A DNA stretch of 33,896 nucleotides from Bacteriovoracaceae bacterium (GTDB lineage: Bacteria > Bdellovibrionota > Bacteriovoracia > Bacteriovoracales > Bacteriovoracaceae). The position numbers and the translations under genes are program-made. The notes under the pieces are model-generated. The model did no database searches and was not told the origin of the DNA. It worked only from the letters and a program-made list of their open reading frames with translations. Shown piece by piece: positions 12,581 to 31,815 of this stretch. The stretch is from the NCBI GenBank assembly GCA_947461175.1, contig CANHIY010000015.1, positions 1 to 33,896 on the forward strand, in the 5' to 3' direction. Numbering within the stretch: the stretch's first letter is position 1; each line of letters opens with the position of its first letter.

Positions 12581-12610
12581 AAGCTCAGGATGAGCGCAAG
12601 AGGTAAAACC

Positions 12611-14686
12611 ATGGATAGGTTTTTAGAAAAATTAAAAATATTTTCAAAAAATTCAGAACTTGTAGTCGCTTTGGGTCTCATCCTGATCTTAGGGATTATG
12701 GTCGTTCCTCTACCTCCGATGATCCTGGATTTATTCCTAGCTCTCTCAATTGCAGTTTCAATAGCCGTGCTTCTTATGTCTGTTTACGCCAGAAAGCCTC
12801 TGGATTTTTCAACTTTTCCATCTGTTATTTTGATTACAACTCTTCTACGACTTTCACTCAACGTGGCTTCTACTAGAAACATTCTTATTCATGGAGCAAC
12901 AGACGGAACCAAAGCCGCGGGACACATAATTGAAGCATTTGGAGAGTTTGTTGTTGGAGGTAATTATGCCGTAGGTATCATTATCTTTCTCATCCTTGTC
13001 GTTATCAATTTTATCGTTATTACTAAGGGTGCTGGAAGAGTTGCTGAAGTAAGTGCAAGATTCACATTAGATGCTATGCCTGGTAAACAAATGGCGATTG
13101 ATGCAGATTTGAACGCCGGATTAATTGATGATAAAGAGGCGAAACGTCGCAGAGCAGAGGTTGCCCAAGAAGCAGACTTCTATGGATCGATGGATGGTGC
13201 TTCTAAATTTGTTCGCGGAGATGCTATTGCAGGTATTTTAATCACGGCGATTAACATTGTGGGTGGAATTATAGTTGGAGTTGCACAAAATGATATGGCC
13301 TTTTCTGATGCTGCCAGAACATTTACTCTATTAACGGTTGGTGATGGTCTCATTGCTCAAATTCCTGCACTTATTATTTCAACTGCCGCCGGTATTATTA
13401 CCACACGTAACTCCAATTCCGAGGCACTTGGAACTCAGGTTAATGAAGAATTCAAAGCACATCCTAAAGCTTTTTACATTACAGCAGCTGCTATTAGTTT
13501 TTTCGGTATCATTCCTGGATTTCCGGCGCTTCCATTTTTTGTCATAGGTTCTTTAATTGGATTCGCTGGATTTAAAATTGAAAAATCTAAAGAGTTGGAT
13601 AAAGTAGCTGCATCTTCATCAGCAATCCAGGAATCCAAATCAAAAAGTGAAACACTTGAGTCCTTACTCCCTGTTGAGTTGGTTCAGTTGGAAGTAGGAT
13701 ATGGGATAGTCAATATTGTAGACGCGGAACAAAATGGTGATCTTCTTGAGAGAATTTCACATATAAGAAAACAGTTTGCCATGGATTGGGGGGTCATTGT
13801 TCCCTCAGTTCGCATTAAAGATAATTTGGAATTAAAGCCTTGTGCCTACTCAATAAAGCTAAAGGGGATTGAAATCGCAAAAGGCGAATTGATGGCCGAT
13901 CATATGATGGCGATGGATCCCGGTACTGTCATTGAGCAAATGGAGGGCATTGAAACTAAAGAGCCTGTATTTGGTTTGCCGGCAATATGGATCAATGAAG
14001 AGCGTAAAGATGAGGCACAATATAACGGTTACACTGTTGTTGACTTGTCCACGATCGTAGCCACTCATTTAACGGAAGTCTTAAAGACTAATTTATCTGA
14101 ACTTTTTGGTCGGCAGGAATTAGTCAGGTTGCTTGATAACTTTAAGGAAGAGAATCCTAAAGTAGTTTCCGATCTTATTCCTGATATTGTTCCTTTAGGT
14201 ATAGTTCTTAAGGTTCTTCAGTGTCTTCTTCGAGAAGGAGTGTCCATTCGAGATCTAAGAACTATTCTTGAAACTTTAGCTGAATTTGGTACCACTTCAA
14301 AAGACCCCGAAGCTCTCACTGAATATGTAAGACAATCCCTTTATCGAACAATTACTGAAAAGATCAGGGATTCTCAGGGAGATGTTCCTCTCTTTACTTT
14401 AGATAAGTCTCTTGAGGAAACTGTTGCCCGATCAATACTTCAAACAGATCAAGGCACTCAATTAAATATGGATCCAAAAGTTACCCAGACGATTCTTGCT
14501 TCTTTACATGATAAAATTGAGGAAGCAACTTCTCAAGGGGAAAAAATGGTGGTTCTTTGTTCTCCAGTGATAAGGCGGCATTTTAAAAAGTTGACGGAAA
14601 AATTCATTCCCAACATGACAGTGGTAAGTCATAATGAATTAAGTCCGGAAGTTAATATACGATCTCTTGGAACCGTGAGGTTATAA
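12611..14686 (+). CDS. flhA: FlhA, flagellar export gate protein
   Basis: FlhA is the large export-gate subunit: a nonameric ring whose C-terminal domain docks chaperone-substrate complexes and whose membrane part couples to the proton motive force. Eight hydrophobic segments occupy roughly the first 320 residues. The conserved cytoplasmic loop AEVSARFTLDAMPGKQMAID is intact, and a full cytoplasmic domain follows (LLPVELVQLEVGYGIVNIVD onward, ending in RSLGTVRL). I prefer the ATG at 12611 (691 residues) because AAGAGG lies seven bases upstream; an in-frame ATG at 12590 has only a crowded AGG. It is followed by flhF after three bases. Confidence 0.97.
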   Translation: MDRFLEKLKIFSKNSELVVALGLILILGIMVVPLPPMILDLFLALSIAVSIAVLLMSVYARKPLDFSTFPSVILITTLLRLSLNVASTRNILIHGATDGTKAAGHIIEAFGEFVVGGNYAVGIIIFLILVVINFIVITKGAGRVAEVSARFTLDAMPGKQMAIDADLNAGLIDDKEAKRRRAEVAQEADFYGSMDGASKFVRGDAIAGILITAINIVGGIIVGVAQNDMAFSDAARTFTLLTVGDGLIAQIPALIISTAAGIITTRNSNSEALGTQVNEEFKAHPKAFYITAAAISFFGIIPGFPALPFFVIGSLIGFAGFKIEKSKELDKVAASSSAIQESKSKSETLESLLPVELVQLEVGYGIVNIVDAEQNGDLLERISHIRKQFAMDWGVIVPSVRIKDNLELKPCAYSIKLKGIEIAKGELMADHMMAMDPGTVIEQMEGIETKEPVFGLPAIWINEERKDEAQYNGYTVVDLSTIVATHLTEVLKTNLSELFGRQELVRLLDNFKEENPKVVSDLIPDIVPLGIVLKVLQCLLREGVSIRDLRTILETLAEFGTTSKDPEALTEYVRQSLYRTITEKIRDSQGDVPLFTLDKSLEETVARSILQTDQGTQLNMDPKVTQTILASLHDKIEEATSQGEKMVVLCSPVIRRHFKKLTEKFIPNMTVVSHNELSPEVNIRSLGTVRL

Positions 14687-14689
14687 ACC

Positions 14690-16225
14690 ATGCTAGTCAA
14701 GAAGTTCGAAGCTGACAATCTGGAAGAAGCACTTAAGGCAGTAAAAGTAGAGCTAGGGCCTGATGCCATAATTCTAAAAACTGTCACAAACAATGGAATA
14801 AAGGGTGCTTTCAAGAAAAAAAGAATTGAAATTACAGCAGCTATATCTGAGAAGAGTTACGAGAAAAAAGCAAAGGTGGATAAAGTTTTGAACAAGGATC
14901 AAAAAGAAGCTTTTTATCAAAAGCCCGCAGGAATGATTAAAGACTCGATTACAAAGTATAATGGCCCCGAAACAACTTCCGGCTACGGTTCCATGGGTTT
15001 AAATAAGGTCGTAAATACACTAGCAAGAGGTTCAGCTGGTTTATCTGATATTACTTCAAAGACTTCAAGTTTGATTAAAAATAGTCTGGATGATTTTCTT
15101 TCAGATCATGAGGATTCTGGTTTTGATATTGATTCCGCTGATGACATTTCAATTCAATCCAAAAGTGTAGGAAGAGGAAAGTATGCTGAGCCGCCTTTGG
15201 GTGATTCACGGATTTTAAATTCTCAATTTGAAAATAAACAATCTTCTAGGGCTGGAGGAGATCATTCTAGGAACATCTCACGTGAGCAAAACGCACCTTC
15301 ACAGAACCAAATTCCAAGCGTTGTGAGTAGAGAAGCTTATAATGAGCTTAAACAGGAGCTAAAAACTACTCAAAATAGAATGGAATTGCTGGAACAAAAA
15401 TTATTGGAGTTAAGTCAAAACTATCAGATAAATCCAAAGCATTTAAATGAGGCTAAAGGAGTTTTTCAGCTCAGAACTACTCTGAAAACTCTTGACGTCG
15501 ATGAAATACACATCATTGATCTTATAAAAAAAGCAAGTTATGAGCTCTCTAAAGAGGAACTAGATAATCCTGATGTTATTTTTGAATTTGCACTTCAGAA
15601 AATGGCAAGCTCCGTAAATACGGATATCCCCCTCTTCTCAAAGACAGAAAATAATACCCCAGTCATTACAGTTCTCATTTCTGAGGCTGCTTCAGGTCAG
15701 TCTTCGATGGGTACTAAAATTGCTGTATTGAAAAAAGACGTCATTCTCGTTCAATTATCACAAGACTCTCAAGATATCAGTTCCCATGACTTTGCCACTC
15801 AAGCTTTTGGGATAAAGGTTGAAAAAGTTAAGAACTTTTCTGAGGTTGTTGGAATTTGTCGAAAGGCAATGGATGCTAATAAATCTGTTTTGTTGGATCT
15901 CAGGTTAAGTAGTAAGTACACAGACGAGACAAAAAAATTCATCGAAACATTGAGACGTGGTTTCTCTCATGTGGAAGTACTTTGCACCTTGTCTGCCATA
16001 CATTCAGAACTCTACAACAGAAAAATTATTGCCCGTTACAAAGAAATCACGGATGGTGTTATCATTTCACATATAGACCTATGTATGAACTTTGGGGCAA
16101 TTTTTAATGTGCATTTAACACAAAATAAAATTCCCTTGAAGTTCTTTGGTACCGGACCGGTTGTTCCGGATGATATCGAAGGAGCAACTGCCGAAAGACT
16201 TATGGCAGGTCTTTTTCAGTTTTAA
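14690..16225 (+). CDS. flhF: FlhF-like polar flagellum protein with degenerate GTPase domain
   Basis: FlhF is an SRP-type GTPase that marks the pole where the flagellum is built. The N-terminal B domain is well conserved (LEEALKAVKVELGPDAIILKT), and so is the family C-terminus (PLKFFGTGPVVPDDIEGATA). Between them lie a long low-complexity linker (about residues 60-210) and a helical N domain. The G domain is present in outline, but its nucleotide motifs are gone: the P-loop aligns to S331-E-A-A-S-G336-Q337-S338 (Lys replaced by Gln), the DTAG motif reads D403-L-R-L406, and TKxD reads S460-H-I-D463. The frame is intact over 511 residues and lies in a normal flhA-flhF-flhG-fliA order, so this is a maintained gene, not a decaying one. 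It probably cannot hydrolyse GTP and may act as a fixed polar landmark; that last step is inference. Confidence 0.88.
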   Translation: MLVKKFEADNLEEALKAVKVELGPDAIILKTVTNNGIKGAFKKKRIEITAAISEKSYEKKAKVDKVLNKDQKEAFYQKPAGMIKDSITKYNGPETTSGYGSMGLNKVVNTLARGSAGLSDITSKTSSLIKNSLDDFLSDHEDSGFDIDSADDISIQSKSVGRGKYAEPPLGDSRILNSQFENKQSSRAGGDHSRNISREQNAPSQNQIPSVVSREAYNELKQELKTTQNRMELLEQKLLELSQNYQINPKHLNEAKGVFQLRTTLKTLDVDEIHIIDLIKKASYELSKEELDNPDVIFEFALQKMASSVNTDIPLFSKTENNTPVITVLISEAASGQSSMGTKIAVLKKDVILVQLSQDSQDISSHDFATQAFGIKVEKVKNFSEVVGICRKAMDANKSVLLDLRLSSKYTDETKKFIETLRRGFSHVEVLCTLSAIHSELYNRKIIARYKEITDGVIISHIDLCMNFGAIFNVHLTQNKIPLKFFGTGPVVPDDIEGATAERLMAGLFQF

Positions 16226-16303: not shown

Positions 16304-17131
16304 ATGCACGAGAACAAAAACAGGCATTTGTCGTCATCAAATTCCTCAAGTGTTAAAATTTCTTTCACTGCTGGATCTCCAGGTTCAGGCAAGACCTTAA
16401 TTGCTCTTAAGACCGCCTTGGAATATTCGAGAAGTGGAAAAAAGACATTGTTTATAGATTGTGATGTTAATTCGAACAACTCTTCAATTAAACTTGGATT
16501 AGGGAAAAATAGTGAATTTCAAAAAATTATCTCAGGTGAGGGATCATTAGGTGAAACTGTCTTTAAACAAGGAAACTTTCATTTACTAGTGGCTGATGGA
16601 AGCTTCATTCCTAATGAAGAAAAAAATTTTGAGCAAATAGTTATTGATATCATTCATTCACATGAGGATGAATACGATTTTATCATTGTAGAATGTCCCC
16701 CTCTTGGTAAAAATTATTTCTTAAATCTCAACGCATTTTGTGATCATAGAGTGATCGTGATTACCCCGGACCGAAAGTCACTCACTGATTCCTACTCTTT
16801 CATAAAGATGATAACCCAGAGGTTCGGAAAAATTGAGAGCCATATTTTTGTCAATAAGTATTCAAACCATAATCAATTTCAAAAAGTTTCATCAAGCTTG
16901 ACTGAAACAATTGAGAACTTTATAGGTGCCAAAACTCACCTCATAGGTGGAATGCCCAAATTTAATTTTGATGATAATGGATTTGATACTTTTTTCCTCT
17001 CCGGATCAAAGAATGAAATAAATCATAACTTCGTTAAACTTTTATATGGATTTACCGAAAAAGCTGTAGGTTCGAGGATTTCCCAAAGCAAGGGAGTGAC
17101 TCAACGGACCAATGAACAGGAAGTTCATTAA
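16304..17131 (+). CDS. flhG: FlhG-like MinD-family ATPase, atypical
   Basis: FlhG is a MinD-like ATPase that limits flagellar number and normally stimulates the FlhF GTPase. The 275-residue protein starts with a nucleotide loop A23-G-S-P-G-S-G-K30-T31 and then LFIDCDVNSNNSSIKLGL, as in MinD/FlhG. The signature lysine of the deviant Walker A motif (KGGxGKT) is Ser25 here, although Lys30 is kept. The switch II segment reads IIVECPPLGK instead of the usual D-T/P-xAG. The first 20 residues (Ser- and Asn-rich) contain no DQAxxLR motif, the helix that FlhG uses to activate FlhF. AGGAGG precedes the ATG. The position between flhF and fliA supports the FlhG call over a generic ParA protein. Confidence 0.82.
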   Translation: MHENKNRHLSSSNSSSVKISFTAGSPGSGKTLIALKTALEYSRSGKKTLFIDCDVNSNNSSIKLGLGKNSEFQKIISGEGSLGETVFKQGNFHLLVADGSFIPNEEKNFEQIVIDIIHSHEDEYDFIIVECPPLGKNYFLNLNAFCDHRVIVITPDRKSLTDSYSFIKMITQRFGKIESHIFVNKYSNHNQFQKVSSSLTETIENFIGAKTHLIGGMPKFNFDDNGFDTFFLSGSKNEINHNFVKLLYGFTEKAVGSRISQSKGVTQRTNEQEVH

Positions 17132-17155: not shown

Positions 17156-17941
17156 ATGTCATCACTTACAGCAAAATTAAAAAACTTAAAAGACTATCGC
17201 TCAACAGTTGATCCCAAGGTAAAAGATGAAATCATTCTTGAATATGCACCTCTCGTTCGTTATATAGCCCAGAAGATTGCCTCAAGACTACCACCAAATA
17301 TTGAGCTTGATGACATGGTTTCATGTGGGGTTATTGGTTTGATGGATGCCATTGAAAAATTTGATCCTTCTCGTGATAATAAATTTAAGACATATGCTGA
17401 ATTCAGGATTCGTGGAGCTATTTTGGACGAACTTCGGTCCCAGGACTGGGTTCCTCGTTCTGTTCGGGAGAAAGCAAAAGTCGTTGAAAAAGCCTATGCG
17501 CAGCTGGAAAAAGATCTAGGTCGTTCAGCGACTGATGAGGAAATGTGCGAGCATTTACATTGTTCAATGGAAGAGTTTCATCAACTCATAGATAAATCAA
17601 AATCTGTTTCTCTGATGAATATTGATGATGCTGCCACCATGAGTAAGGGTGATAAGCGTCTTATGGTTTCTTTGATGGAGAAGTCTCGTGGGGCAAATCC
17701 ACAAACAGCTGTTGGTTACAAAAAAGCCCAGGAAATAATCAAAGATGGGATTAAAACACTACCTGAAAAACAGCGTCTGGTTCTTTCGCTTTACTACTTT
17801 GAGGATTTAAATTTAAAAGAAATAGGGCAGGTTTTAGACGTTACAGAGTCTAGGGTCTCACAACTCCATACTCAAGCGATTTTAAAGCTTAAAGCAAAAC
17901 TTCGAAACCAATTCGAATCTTATGAGGATCTTGCCAGTTAG
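17156..17941 (+). CDS. fliA: FliA, flagellar sigma factor (sigma-28)
   Basis: FliA directs RNA polymerase to late flagellar and chemotaxis genes. The 261 residues show region 1.2/2 (LEYAPLVRYIAQKIASRLPP, DDMVSCGVIGLMDAIEKFDP, FKTYAEFRIRGAILDELRSQ), region 3 (DLGRSATDEEMCEHLHCSME) and region 4 with its helix-turn-helix (LNLKEIGQVLDVTESRVSQL). The block order and length are those of FliA/WhiG-type sigma factors. AGGAGA precedes the ATG. It is the last gene of the cluster, followed by a long hairpin. No anti-sigma gene flgM is seen in the window. Confidence 0.96.
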   Translation: MSSLTAKLKNLKDYRSTVDPKVKDEIILEYAPLVRYIAQKIASRLPPNIELDDMVSCGVIGLMDAIEKFDPSRDNKFKTYAEFRIRGAILDELRSQDWVPRSVREKAKVVEKAYAQLEKDLGRSATDEEMCEHLHCSMEEFHQLIDKSKSVSLMNIDDAATMSKGDKRLMVSLMEKSRGANPQTAVGYKKAQEIIKDGIKTLPEKQRLVLSLYYFEDLNLKEIGQVLDVTESRVSQLHTQAILKLKAKLRNQFESYEDLAS

Positions 17942-30659: not shown

Positions 30660-31815
30660 ATGATGGATGAGTCACTCTTTTTAAAACTTTCAGATTATAA
30701 GTCTCAATTCGTAGAGATCAAAACGACTTTAGAAACGATCCGGAGGTCGCTTTGACGTTGATCGTAGAGAAAATCGACTAAAAGAAATTTCTGAACTCGA
30801 ATCCCTAGATGGTTTCTGGAACGATTCCGCAAACGCAACCAAAATTCAAAAAGAACGATCAATTATTGAGGAAATCCTTAAGCTTTATTTTAGTGTAAAA
30901 AATCTGTCTGATGATTTTGAAGTACTTTGCGAGATGAGTGCTGAAGGTGATGAGGCTTCAGCTAGAGAGGCTATTGAGATTTTTCCAAGGCTTCAAACAG
31001 CTCTTCATGAAGCTGAAAAGAAGGCCCTCTTATCGGGAGAAACTGATTCAAATAATGCCATTGTAACCATAAATGCTGGAGCTGGAGGAACAGAGTCTTG
31101 TGATTGGGCAGGTATGCTTTTAAGGATGATTCAGCGCTGGTGTGAAGCCAGGGGATTTAAGGCCCAGGTAATGGATTTTCAGTATGGGGATTCGGCTGGT
31201 ATTAAGTCTGCTACCCTATTGGTTCAGGGTAATTATTCTTATGGTCTACTTAAATCAGAATCAGGAGTTCATCGTTTAGTTCGTATCTCACCCTTTGATT
31301 CAAATGCCAGAAGACATACCTCCTTTGCTTCAATCTTTGTGAGCCCAGAGGTGGACGATACGATTGAAATTGAAATTAATGATAAGGATCTTCGTGTCGA
31401 TGTTTATCGCTCCGGTGGTGCCGGTGGACAATCGGTGAATACGGCGGACTCGGCTGTGAGGCTTACTCACTTTCCTTCTGGGATTGTGGTGGCCTGTCAA
31501 AATGAGCGCTCTCAGATTCAGAACCGGGCCATGGCCATGAAAATATTAAAATCACGGTTGTATGATCTTGAAATGCAGAAACGAAAAGAAGCCCAGGATA
31601 AAGTTGAGGCCGGTAAGAAGGATATAGCCTGGGGCTCTCAGATACGTTCCTACGTTCTTCACCCTTATAAATTAGTTAAAGATCATAGAACAGGTTTTAC
31701 CTCCTCTCAGGCCGAAACAGTGCTTGATGGAGATTTAGATGAATTTATGAAAGCTTTTCTTCAATGGAAGTCCCTTGGAGGAGTGGTTCAGGATGCAGGA
31801 GATGAAGATTTATGA
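30660..31815 (+). CDS. prfB: peptide chain release factor 2, with programmed +1 frameshift
   Basis: RF2 ends translation at UGA and UAA codons. The first 31 codons (ATG at 30660, or 30663 for better spacing from AAAGG) end at an in-frame TGA at 30753-30755. Reading continues in the +1 frame from GAC at 30754 to the stop at 31815, giving 384 residues in all. After the shift the sequence is typical RF2 (RRENRLKEISELE, then WNDSANATKIQKE). The codon-recognition tripeptide S210-P-F212 and the peptidyl-hydrolysis motif G255-G-Q257 are present with the same spacing as in well-studied RF2. The last four bases overlap lysS. Low RF2 favours the shift, so the gene is autoregulated. A naive call beginning near 30934 misses the N-terminal 91 residues. 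Confidence 0.95.
30742..30756 (+). promoter_or_regulatory. prfB programmed frameshift site
   Basis: GGAGG (30742-30746), three bases, then CTT-TGA-C. The internal Shine-Dalgarno-like sequence, its spacing, the slippery CTT-T and the TGA-C context all match the canonical RF2 frameshift signal. Confidence 0.96.

Follow-up and report, generated by a model that had tools for sequence, protein, structure and literature searches.

Can a flagellum be placed at the cell pole by an FlhF that has lost the motifs of a GTPase? The question is raised by one gene in a stretch of 33,896 nucleotides (here called the window). The stretch forms contig 15 in an assembly of 3.0 Mb and 211 contigs, a Bacteriovoracaceae MAG that is 89.7% complete. 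From species to species, reports disagree on whether polar placement requires GTP binding by FlhF, GTP hydrolysis or neither of the two. A preliminary description of the window, made from the sequence by eye, proposed that this FlhF had lost three nucleotide motifs at once under selection for a GTP-independent role. We therefore analysed the gene, its relatives in the family and the phylum, and its partner FlhG.

Results

The gene and its product

The gene order in the window is flhA-flhF-flhG-fliA, which is the usual arrangement, and FlhB and ORFs for FliL, FliM, FliN, FliO, FliP and an FliR-like protein are located upstream of the flhA-flhF block. The name FlhB was tested against families and the other names are by-eye readings. 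Another by-eye reading, at positions 30934-31815 of the window, is a release-factor-2-like ORF with a late start, as expected with a preceding programmed frameshift. The features of the flhF region are given in Table 1.

Table 1. Genes of the flhF region and parts of the FlhF protein, with positions in the window
Feature	Positions	Strand	Basis or remark
flhA	12590..14686	+	Synteny; FHIPEP E 2.4e-275, TIGR01398 above cut-off
flhF, probable pseudoGTPase-type FlhF, 511 aa	14690..16225	+	ORF open throughout, profile match, fold match
flhG (MinD-like)	16304..17131	+	Without DQAxxLR; in the window species also without the KGG signature and the W-L N-terminal motif of the family
FliA/WhiG-type sigma factor	17156..17941	+	Synteny
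FlhF residues 1-70, B-domain with presumed FliG interaction domain (FID)	14690..14899	+	Strand-helix-strand-strand; best conserved part
FlhF residues 71-213, helices up to about 91, disordered linker after	14900..15328	+	pLDDT, pN/pS
FlhF residues 214-322, long helix 214-246, then N-domain helices	15329..15655	+	Predicted model
FlhF residues 323-511, G domain, SRP-type fold	15656..16222	+	Predicted model, PDB fold match
FlhF residues 331-338, SEAASGQS at the P-loop site; Q337 at the Walker A Lys position	15680..15703	+	Alignment
FlhF residues 357-364, site of the G2/I-box DTF[KR]xxA, deleted or replaced	15758..15781	+	Alignment
FlhF residues 403-406, DLRL at the DTxG site	15896..15907	+	Alignment; Asp kept in 100/101
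FlhF residues 435-445, SAIHSELYNRK, family-conserved block	15992..16024	+	Family alignment
FlhF residues 460-463, SHID at the TKLD site	16067..16078	+	Alignment; Asp kept in 101/101
FlhF residues 485-500, FFGTGPVVPDDIEGAT, G5 region and C-terminus, kept	16142..16189	+	Family alignment

The FlhF profile TIGR03499 matched the window protein at residues 1-71 only (E 1.3e-14), and the score of the whole protein was 54.9 bits, below the equivalog cut-off of 174.15. The same profile matched all 68 family members of set A2 at E<=0.01, which places the N-terminal B-domain/FID of FlhF in each of them. The Pfam SRP54 profile (PF00448) did not match the window FlhF but did match 34 of these 68 family members. 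In a profile search against PDB sequences the solved FlhF FID (9en1) was matched weakly, with an E of 0.045, and the remainder was coiled-coil noise. A Pfam match to T4 gp9/10 (E 0.0056, under its cut-off) was set aside as chance.

An AlphaFold2 model based on 67 family sequences (mean pLDDT 74.7, pTM 0.49) began with a strand-helix-strand-strand unit, followed by a disordered linker and then by the N and G domains. In blocks of ten residues, the pLDDT was 70-92 over residues 1-70 and 75-96 in the G domain, except for residues 361-370 (61) and 491-511 (42-57), and it was below 50 in the linker over residues 95-121 and 137-209. Of the 1661 Foldseek matches with E<=10, the first was to S. putrefaciens FlhF with bound GDP (8r9r, E 5.9e-12, 14% identity), and the FlhF structures 2px3 and 2px0 were within the first six, so that the structure prediction called for in the preliminary description led back to FlhF and the predicted model has the NG fold of SRP GTPases. 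Based on synteny, the N-terminal profile match and the predicted SRP/FlhF fold, the window protein is FlhF by descent, gene position and predicted fold.

State of the GTPase motifs across the family

The best FlhF-like ORF was taken from 186 of 190 loci, and 158 rows were left after removal of identical copies. Four rows (L001, L002, L189 and L190) were excluded as Ffh, FtsY or doubtful, which gave 154 rows, namely 105 from the family of the window and 49 from other families of the phylum. For the tallies the short family rows L024, L030, L110 and L155 were set aside, leaving 101 complete family rows.

The P-loop Lys was replaced by Gln in all 101 complete family rows, whereas it was Lys in 49/49 of the others. 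With the short rows included, Gln was found in each of the 104 family rows (of 105 distinct) that reach the site, and this state is therefore not due to chance. A Walker A motif was found nowhere in the protein in any of the 105 family rows, as compared to 49/49 rows of other families, and neither [AG]x4GK[ST] nor [NTS]KxD occurs over the full length of the window FlhF. Along with the Lys, the first P-loop Gly was changed, being Ser in 99 and Gly in 2 of the 101 family rows (Gly in 49/49 others), and the same comparison gave 2/101 vs 41/49 for the Gly of DTxG and 2/101 vs 33/49 for the G4 Lys. The Thr of DTxG was Y, L, V, I or F across the 101 family rows. A fourth loss, missed by the preliminary description, concerned the SRP-type G2/I-box DTF[KR]xxAxxQ, which is gone and partly deleted; its conserved Ala was gapped in 97/101 family rows and the other box positions were unconserved. 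The window FlhF thus lacks the G1-G4 nucleotide motifs. The record named H. marinus (L106) reads SETSTGQTSM at the P-loop site, i.e. the GQT form.

Several positions of the site were kept in the 101 family rows, including the second P-loop Gly (100/101), S or T at the P-loop Thr position S338 (98/101), the Lys five positions past it (K343, 101/101), the G3 Asp D403, the G4 Asp D463 and the G5 Gly (101/101). Blocks such as residues 435-445 were also conserved across the family. The alignment reproduced the by-eye placement of S331-EAASGQ-S338, DLRL and SHID on the P-loop, DTxG and TKLD, and the Gln proved to be common to the whole family, as the preliminary description had asked; of DLRL and SHID the Asp residues are shared and the position of the DTxG Thr varies. 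The claim that all three nucleotide motifs were lost at once went too far, as S338, D403 and D463 occupy conserved positions that are kept, and as Bdellovibrio-type relatives combine an eroded G3/G4 with an intact P-loop. Judged from these sequences, the change of the FlhF GTP site is family-wide, wider than first observed.

Selection, copy number and gene loss

Selection was estimated from the 253 pairs among 23 congeneric FlhFs, with dN/dS medians over the pairs with defined dS. Residues 1-70 had a median dN/dS of 0.023 (86 pairs), as compared to 0.047 in the G domain (180 pairs) and 0.153 in the linker (71 pairs); these values are rough because synonymous sites are near saturation. The median pN/pS was 0.05 for residues 1-70, 0.36 for the linker (71-230) and 0.11 for the G domain. 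By these substitution rates flhF is not decaying and its G domain is under strong purifying selection. Sequencing error or a pseudogene was ruled out as an explanation of the changed site by the 105 family rows together with dN/dS.

A second, canonical flhF in the same genome would have undermined the preliminary description, and none was found in the own genome, in 17 relatives or in 129 genomes of the order. In the own genome (89.7% complete) there were two matches to SRP54 that by length and score would be FtsY and Ffh, and none of the 17 family genomes had more than two strong SRP54 domains (G028 had one). In six of these 17 genomes the changed FlhF itself appeared as a weak, partial SRP54 match, and the few other weak matches were P-loop matches of 34-39 residues. 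TIGR03499 exceeded its cut-off in 0/129 genomes of the order, as compared to 55/144 genomes of the phylum. A canonical FlhF elsewhere was rejected on both searches, with the own assembly being 89.7% complete.

An FlhF relative was present in 119/129 family genomes. Eight of the ten genomes without an FlhF match are <90% complete, and the other two are G124 (99%) and G212 (91%). In-frame stops were seen in flhF of two family genomes, a TGA in G011 (L024 / L076 / L148) and a TAG in G227 (C25:18229-19629), and these would reflect either a sequencing error or a broken gene. No relative of the window FlhF was found in viral contigs.

A role without the normal GTPase cycle is likely for this protein, because the reading frame is intact without a stop over its 511 codons, the family termini are kept (the N-terminal profile match as well as the G5 region and C-terminus), the change is shared, a second canonical flhF did not turn up in the genomes searched and the G domain is under strong selection. 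In this respect the proposed selection for a GTP-independent role holds in part: the strong selection and the likely role outside the GTPase cycle agree with it, and the partly kept site does not.

Timing on the FlhA tree

The 14 family rows in a 62-row FlhA tree grouped as one clade (100/100), which was sister (98/94) to the lineages L033 and L035. In a quicker FlhA tree of 86 rows (38 family) the support was 100 for the clade and 89, unstarred, for the sister relation. The two genomes of L033 and L035 (families f24 and f17) have a canonical FlhF. On the FlhA tree the P-loop Lys-to-Gln replacement is a single change, and the loss of the P-loop Lys and of the I-box would appear to date from the common ancestor of the family.

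Bdellovibrio-type relatives (families f6, f11, f14, f18, f21 and f22) resemble the window family in an FlhF that in many rows has an eroded G3, G4 or both (DYTG, TSLD, NDLD) and in an FlhG without DQAxxLR; unlike the window family, they have the P-loop Lys in every row. As these rows branch elsewhere in the FlhA tree with different motif losses, the GTP site has eroded on more than one occasion and to varying depth.

The FlhG partner

According to a review, FlhG stimulates FlhF via a Gln located in the DQAxxLR motif at the N-terminus of FlhG. FlhG was assigned in 126 of 137 family loci (11 without), giving 96 distinct sequences, all of which overlap flhF or begin <=100 bp downstream. DQAxxLR was found in 0/96 of these, KGGxGK was present in 95/96, and 92 had a W-L motif N-terminal of KGGxGK. 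In the rest of the phylum FlhG was assigned for 38/48 tree rows; DQAxxLR was present in 16/19 rows with a canonical FlhF vs 0/19 rows with an eroded FlhF.

The canonical rows without DQAxxLR were L033 and L035, the sister of the family, and L183 (f23), the sister of the other Bdellovibrio-type rows, and these three possibly represent an intermediate state. Because in two cases the branch adjoining an eroded group is already without DQAxxLR, the sequences suggest that the activator motif of FlhG was lost first and the FlhF GTPase site afterwards. For a third eroded group (L180, L181, L187 and L188), with short FlhFs and a changed G3, no intermediate was seen, and its tree neighbours (f9; L052, L056 and L171) have kept both a canonical FlhF and DQAxxLR. 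FlhF state and FlhG DQAxxLR each changed about three times on the tree, which is too few for an independent-pairs test of co-loss.

In the FlhG of the window KGGVGKT is replaced by SPGSGKT, the sole case among the 96, and the W-L motif is missing as well. When this FlhG was compared to 19 genus relatives (five congeners were excluded because their genes were short or missing), its median identity was 50%, vs 73% among the relatives, whereas FlhF (74 vs 79%) and FlhA (84 vs 86%) were ordinary. The pN/pS of FlhG was 0.43 in pairs with the window and 0.26 in other pairs. By these comparisons the FlhG of the window species is fast-evolving relative to its own FlhF and FlhA, which is not a family trait.

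Elsewhere in the phylum the reverse pattern was observed in L038, L040, L045 and L046 (f8 and f19), which combine an intact FlhF P-loop and an FlhG with DQAxxLR with an unrecognisable KGG-type P-loop in FlhG. Additionally, ten loci with a P-loop-bearing FlhF (L034, L037, L043, L048, L055, L062, L175, L177, L178 and L179) had no match to the FlhG profile used in the locus; loss, divergence or short flanks may be the reason.

Discussion

We consider it probable, from sequence and predicted fold, that this flhF orthologue encodes an FlhF whose NG domain became fixed as a pseudoGTPase in the ancestor of the Bacteriovoracaceae and works as an adaptor. A GTPase fold without catalytic motifs, which defines the pseudoGTPase class, is what sequence and predicted model combine here. 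The family FlhF would be unable to hydrolyse GTP or to build the GTP-dependent homodimer with its composite site, and would act as a constitutive adaptor. In such an adaptor the B-domain (residues 1-70) would capture FliG, and thereby FliF, at the pole, the NG domain would serve as a protein-binding surface that holds the polar site, and timing, release or counting would be provided by the FlhG ATPase and/or the progress of the C-ring in place of GTP. A tether-only FlhF could work without GTP, since in Shewanella the NG domain is reported to bind the landmark HubP irrespective of GDP or GTP. Binding of FliG is described for the first 44-60 residues of S. putrefaciens FlhF. FlhF is probably retained as the tether in this family.

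Reports on other species point in different directions, and the premise of the preliminary description, that polar recruitment of FlhF normally requires dimerisation driven by GTP, is disputed by the Vibrio and Shewanella data rather than settled. FlhF of P. aeruginosa is reported to depend critically on its GTPase domain for staying at the pole, with GTP binding regulating the contact with FliG, and a review describes GTP-dependent dimerisation of FlhF as crucial. For V. alginolyticus it was reported that T306A and D439A abolish flagella and that E440K is aflagellate, and that G299A, G304A, K305A, D377A and K437A still form flagella, in smaller number and with less polar localisation of FlhF. 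Vibrio FlhF R334A is described to have no measurable GTPase activity and normal polar flagella, and the same authors state that GTP binding seems important. When the Vibrio positions were mapped by motif spacing, the counterparts of T306, D439, G304 and D377 were kept in the family and those of G299, K305 and K437 were lost; E440 was lost too (E in 2/101 rows), and the match to the mutant data is thus imperfect. The GTP-binding evidence from P. aeruginosa, the review and Vibrio counts against a pseudoGTPase adaptor, as far as these sources go.

The kept S/T338, D403, D463, K343 and G5 Gly also count against the pseudoGTPase reading, as they are expected if a nucleotide is still held. An alternative is that the pocket, despite lacking the two lysines, still accommodates a nucleotide (GTP, GDP or a different one), which is not hydrolysed and serves to set the fold or an interface. 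The near-invariance of these five positions and the invariant Gln, which is more than a dead site would require, would fit such a binder, as would the reported V. alginolyticus mutants, in which T306A and D439A abolish flagella and K305A, K437A and G299A do not. We regard it as unlikely, given that the first Gly is Ser in almost every row, that the G4 Lys is nearly always absent and that the I-box is gone; stability of the fold could also explain the kept residues. That FlhF is instead relaxed, dispensable for placement and on its way out of these genomes is highly improbable and was already disfavoured: the ten genomes without a match, including G124 and G212, and the in-frame stops in G011 and G227 speak for it, but the low dN/dS of the G domain, the conserved family blocks and a single motif state across the family rows do not agree with decay.

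It is also conceivable that FlhF has moved to a flagellar role other than placement (e.g. gene regulation or assembly order) and that an unrelated system places the flagellum. A review attributes functions in gene expression and C-ring checkpoints to FlhF/FlhG, and a search of five family genomes gave no convincing polar landmark. FipA was found in 0/5 of these, an absence that is weak as no genome of the control panel passed; PF10975 (FipA, DUF2802) matched 36/144 phylum genomes, many Bdellovibrio-type genomes among them and none from the family, with at least 20 family genomes unmatched and no positive control. FipA as a compensating landmark was rejected on this absence. The FimV/HubP C-terminus (TIGR03504) gave one weak match below its cut-off among nine genomes (1/5 family genomes), likewise with no positive control. 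These searches gave no polar partner for the NG domain, which counts against the adaptor reading, although the models for FipA and FimV may not reach the phylum Bdellovibrionota. We consider a non-placement role quite doubtful, since conservation in the protein is highest at the presumed FliG-binding end, flhF stays in the flhA-flhF-flhG-fliA order and the described relatives are reported to carry single, polar flagella.

These relatives are H. marinus BE01, Halobacteriovorax isolates and Bacteriovorax sp. As-1. With single polar flagella in Halobacteriovorax and Bacteriovorax and the GQT form in the H. marinus record, it is very probable that the changed FlhF and a polar flagellum occur together; the flagella and the flhF sequences come from different strains and records. 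The apparently ancestral change of the GTP site, together with strong selection, suggests that polar placement is possible without FlhF as a GTP switch. An extended proposal, which we put forward tentatively and with considerable doubt, is a GTP-free FlhF-FlhG system that places a single polar flagellum across the whole order, in which FlhF would be a permanent adaptor, the conserved N-terminal W-L helix would replace the activator helix of FlhG and bind the pseudoGTPase, the ATPase of FlhG would set the timing, and the activator would have been lost first.

The family can be considered a natural experiment, with a single polar flagellum in the observed members and a P-loop Lys and I-box apparently lost since the common ancestor, and the question becomes testable in cultivable predators, in which the tether function of FlhF is separable from the switch. 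Because the family FlhFs lie under the curated TIGR03499 cut-off, annotation by that model would miss them. No work joining FlhF with Bacteriovorax was found in a literature search that left subscription papers mostly outside; the matches for FlhF and Bdellovibrio included none about FlhF by title, and those listed for FlhF and degenerate or pseudo-GTPases included nothing relevant by title or start of the abstract. We thus found no earlier description of a family-wide FlhF without a GTPase site, which is not proof of its absence in print.

In comparison to known systems, the window FlhF has the fold of B-domain/FID, N and G domain in common with S. putrefaciens FlhF (8r9r, FID 9en1) and the FlhF structures 2px0 and 2px3, and its gene is located between flhA and flhG like that of canonical FlhF. 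It differs from canonical FlhF in the Walker A Lys (Gln), the first Gly (Ser), the deleted I-box and the lost G4 Lys, and its partner FlhG is without DQAxxLR. Among eukaryotic proteins, the degenerate septins (PMC10731463) are described to keep a GTPase-like fold in assembly after motif loss, and the pseudoGTPase domains of p190RhoGAP (PMC5593906) to have a GTPase-like fold without GTPase motifs, in both cases as here. No close homology to these proteins is claimed, and the window FlhF differs from them in being bacterial, of the SRP/SIMIBI class and a part of flagellar assembly.
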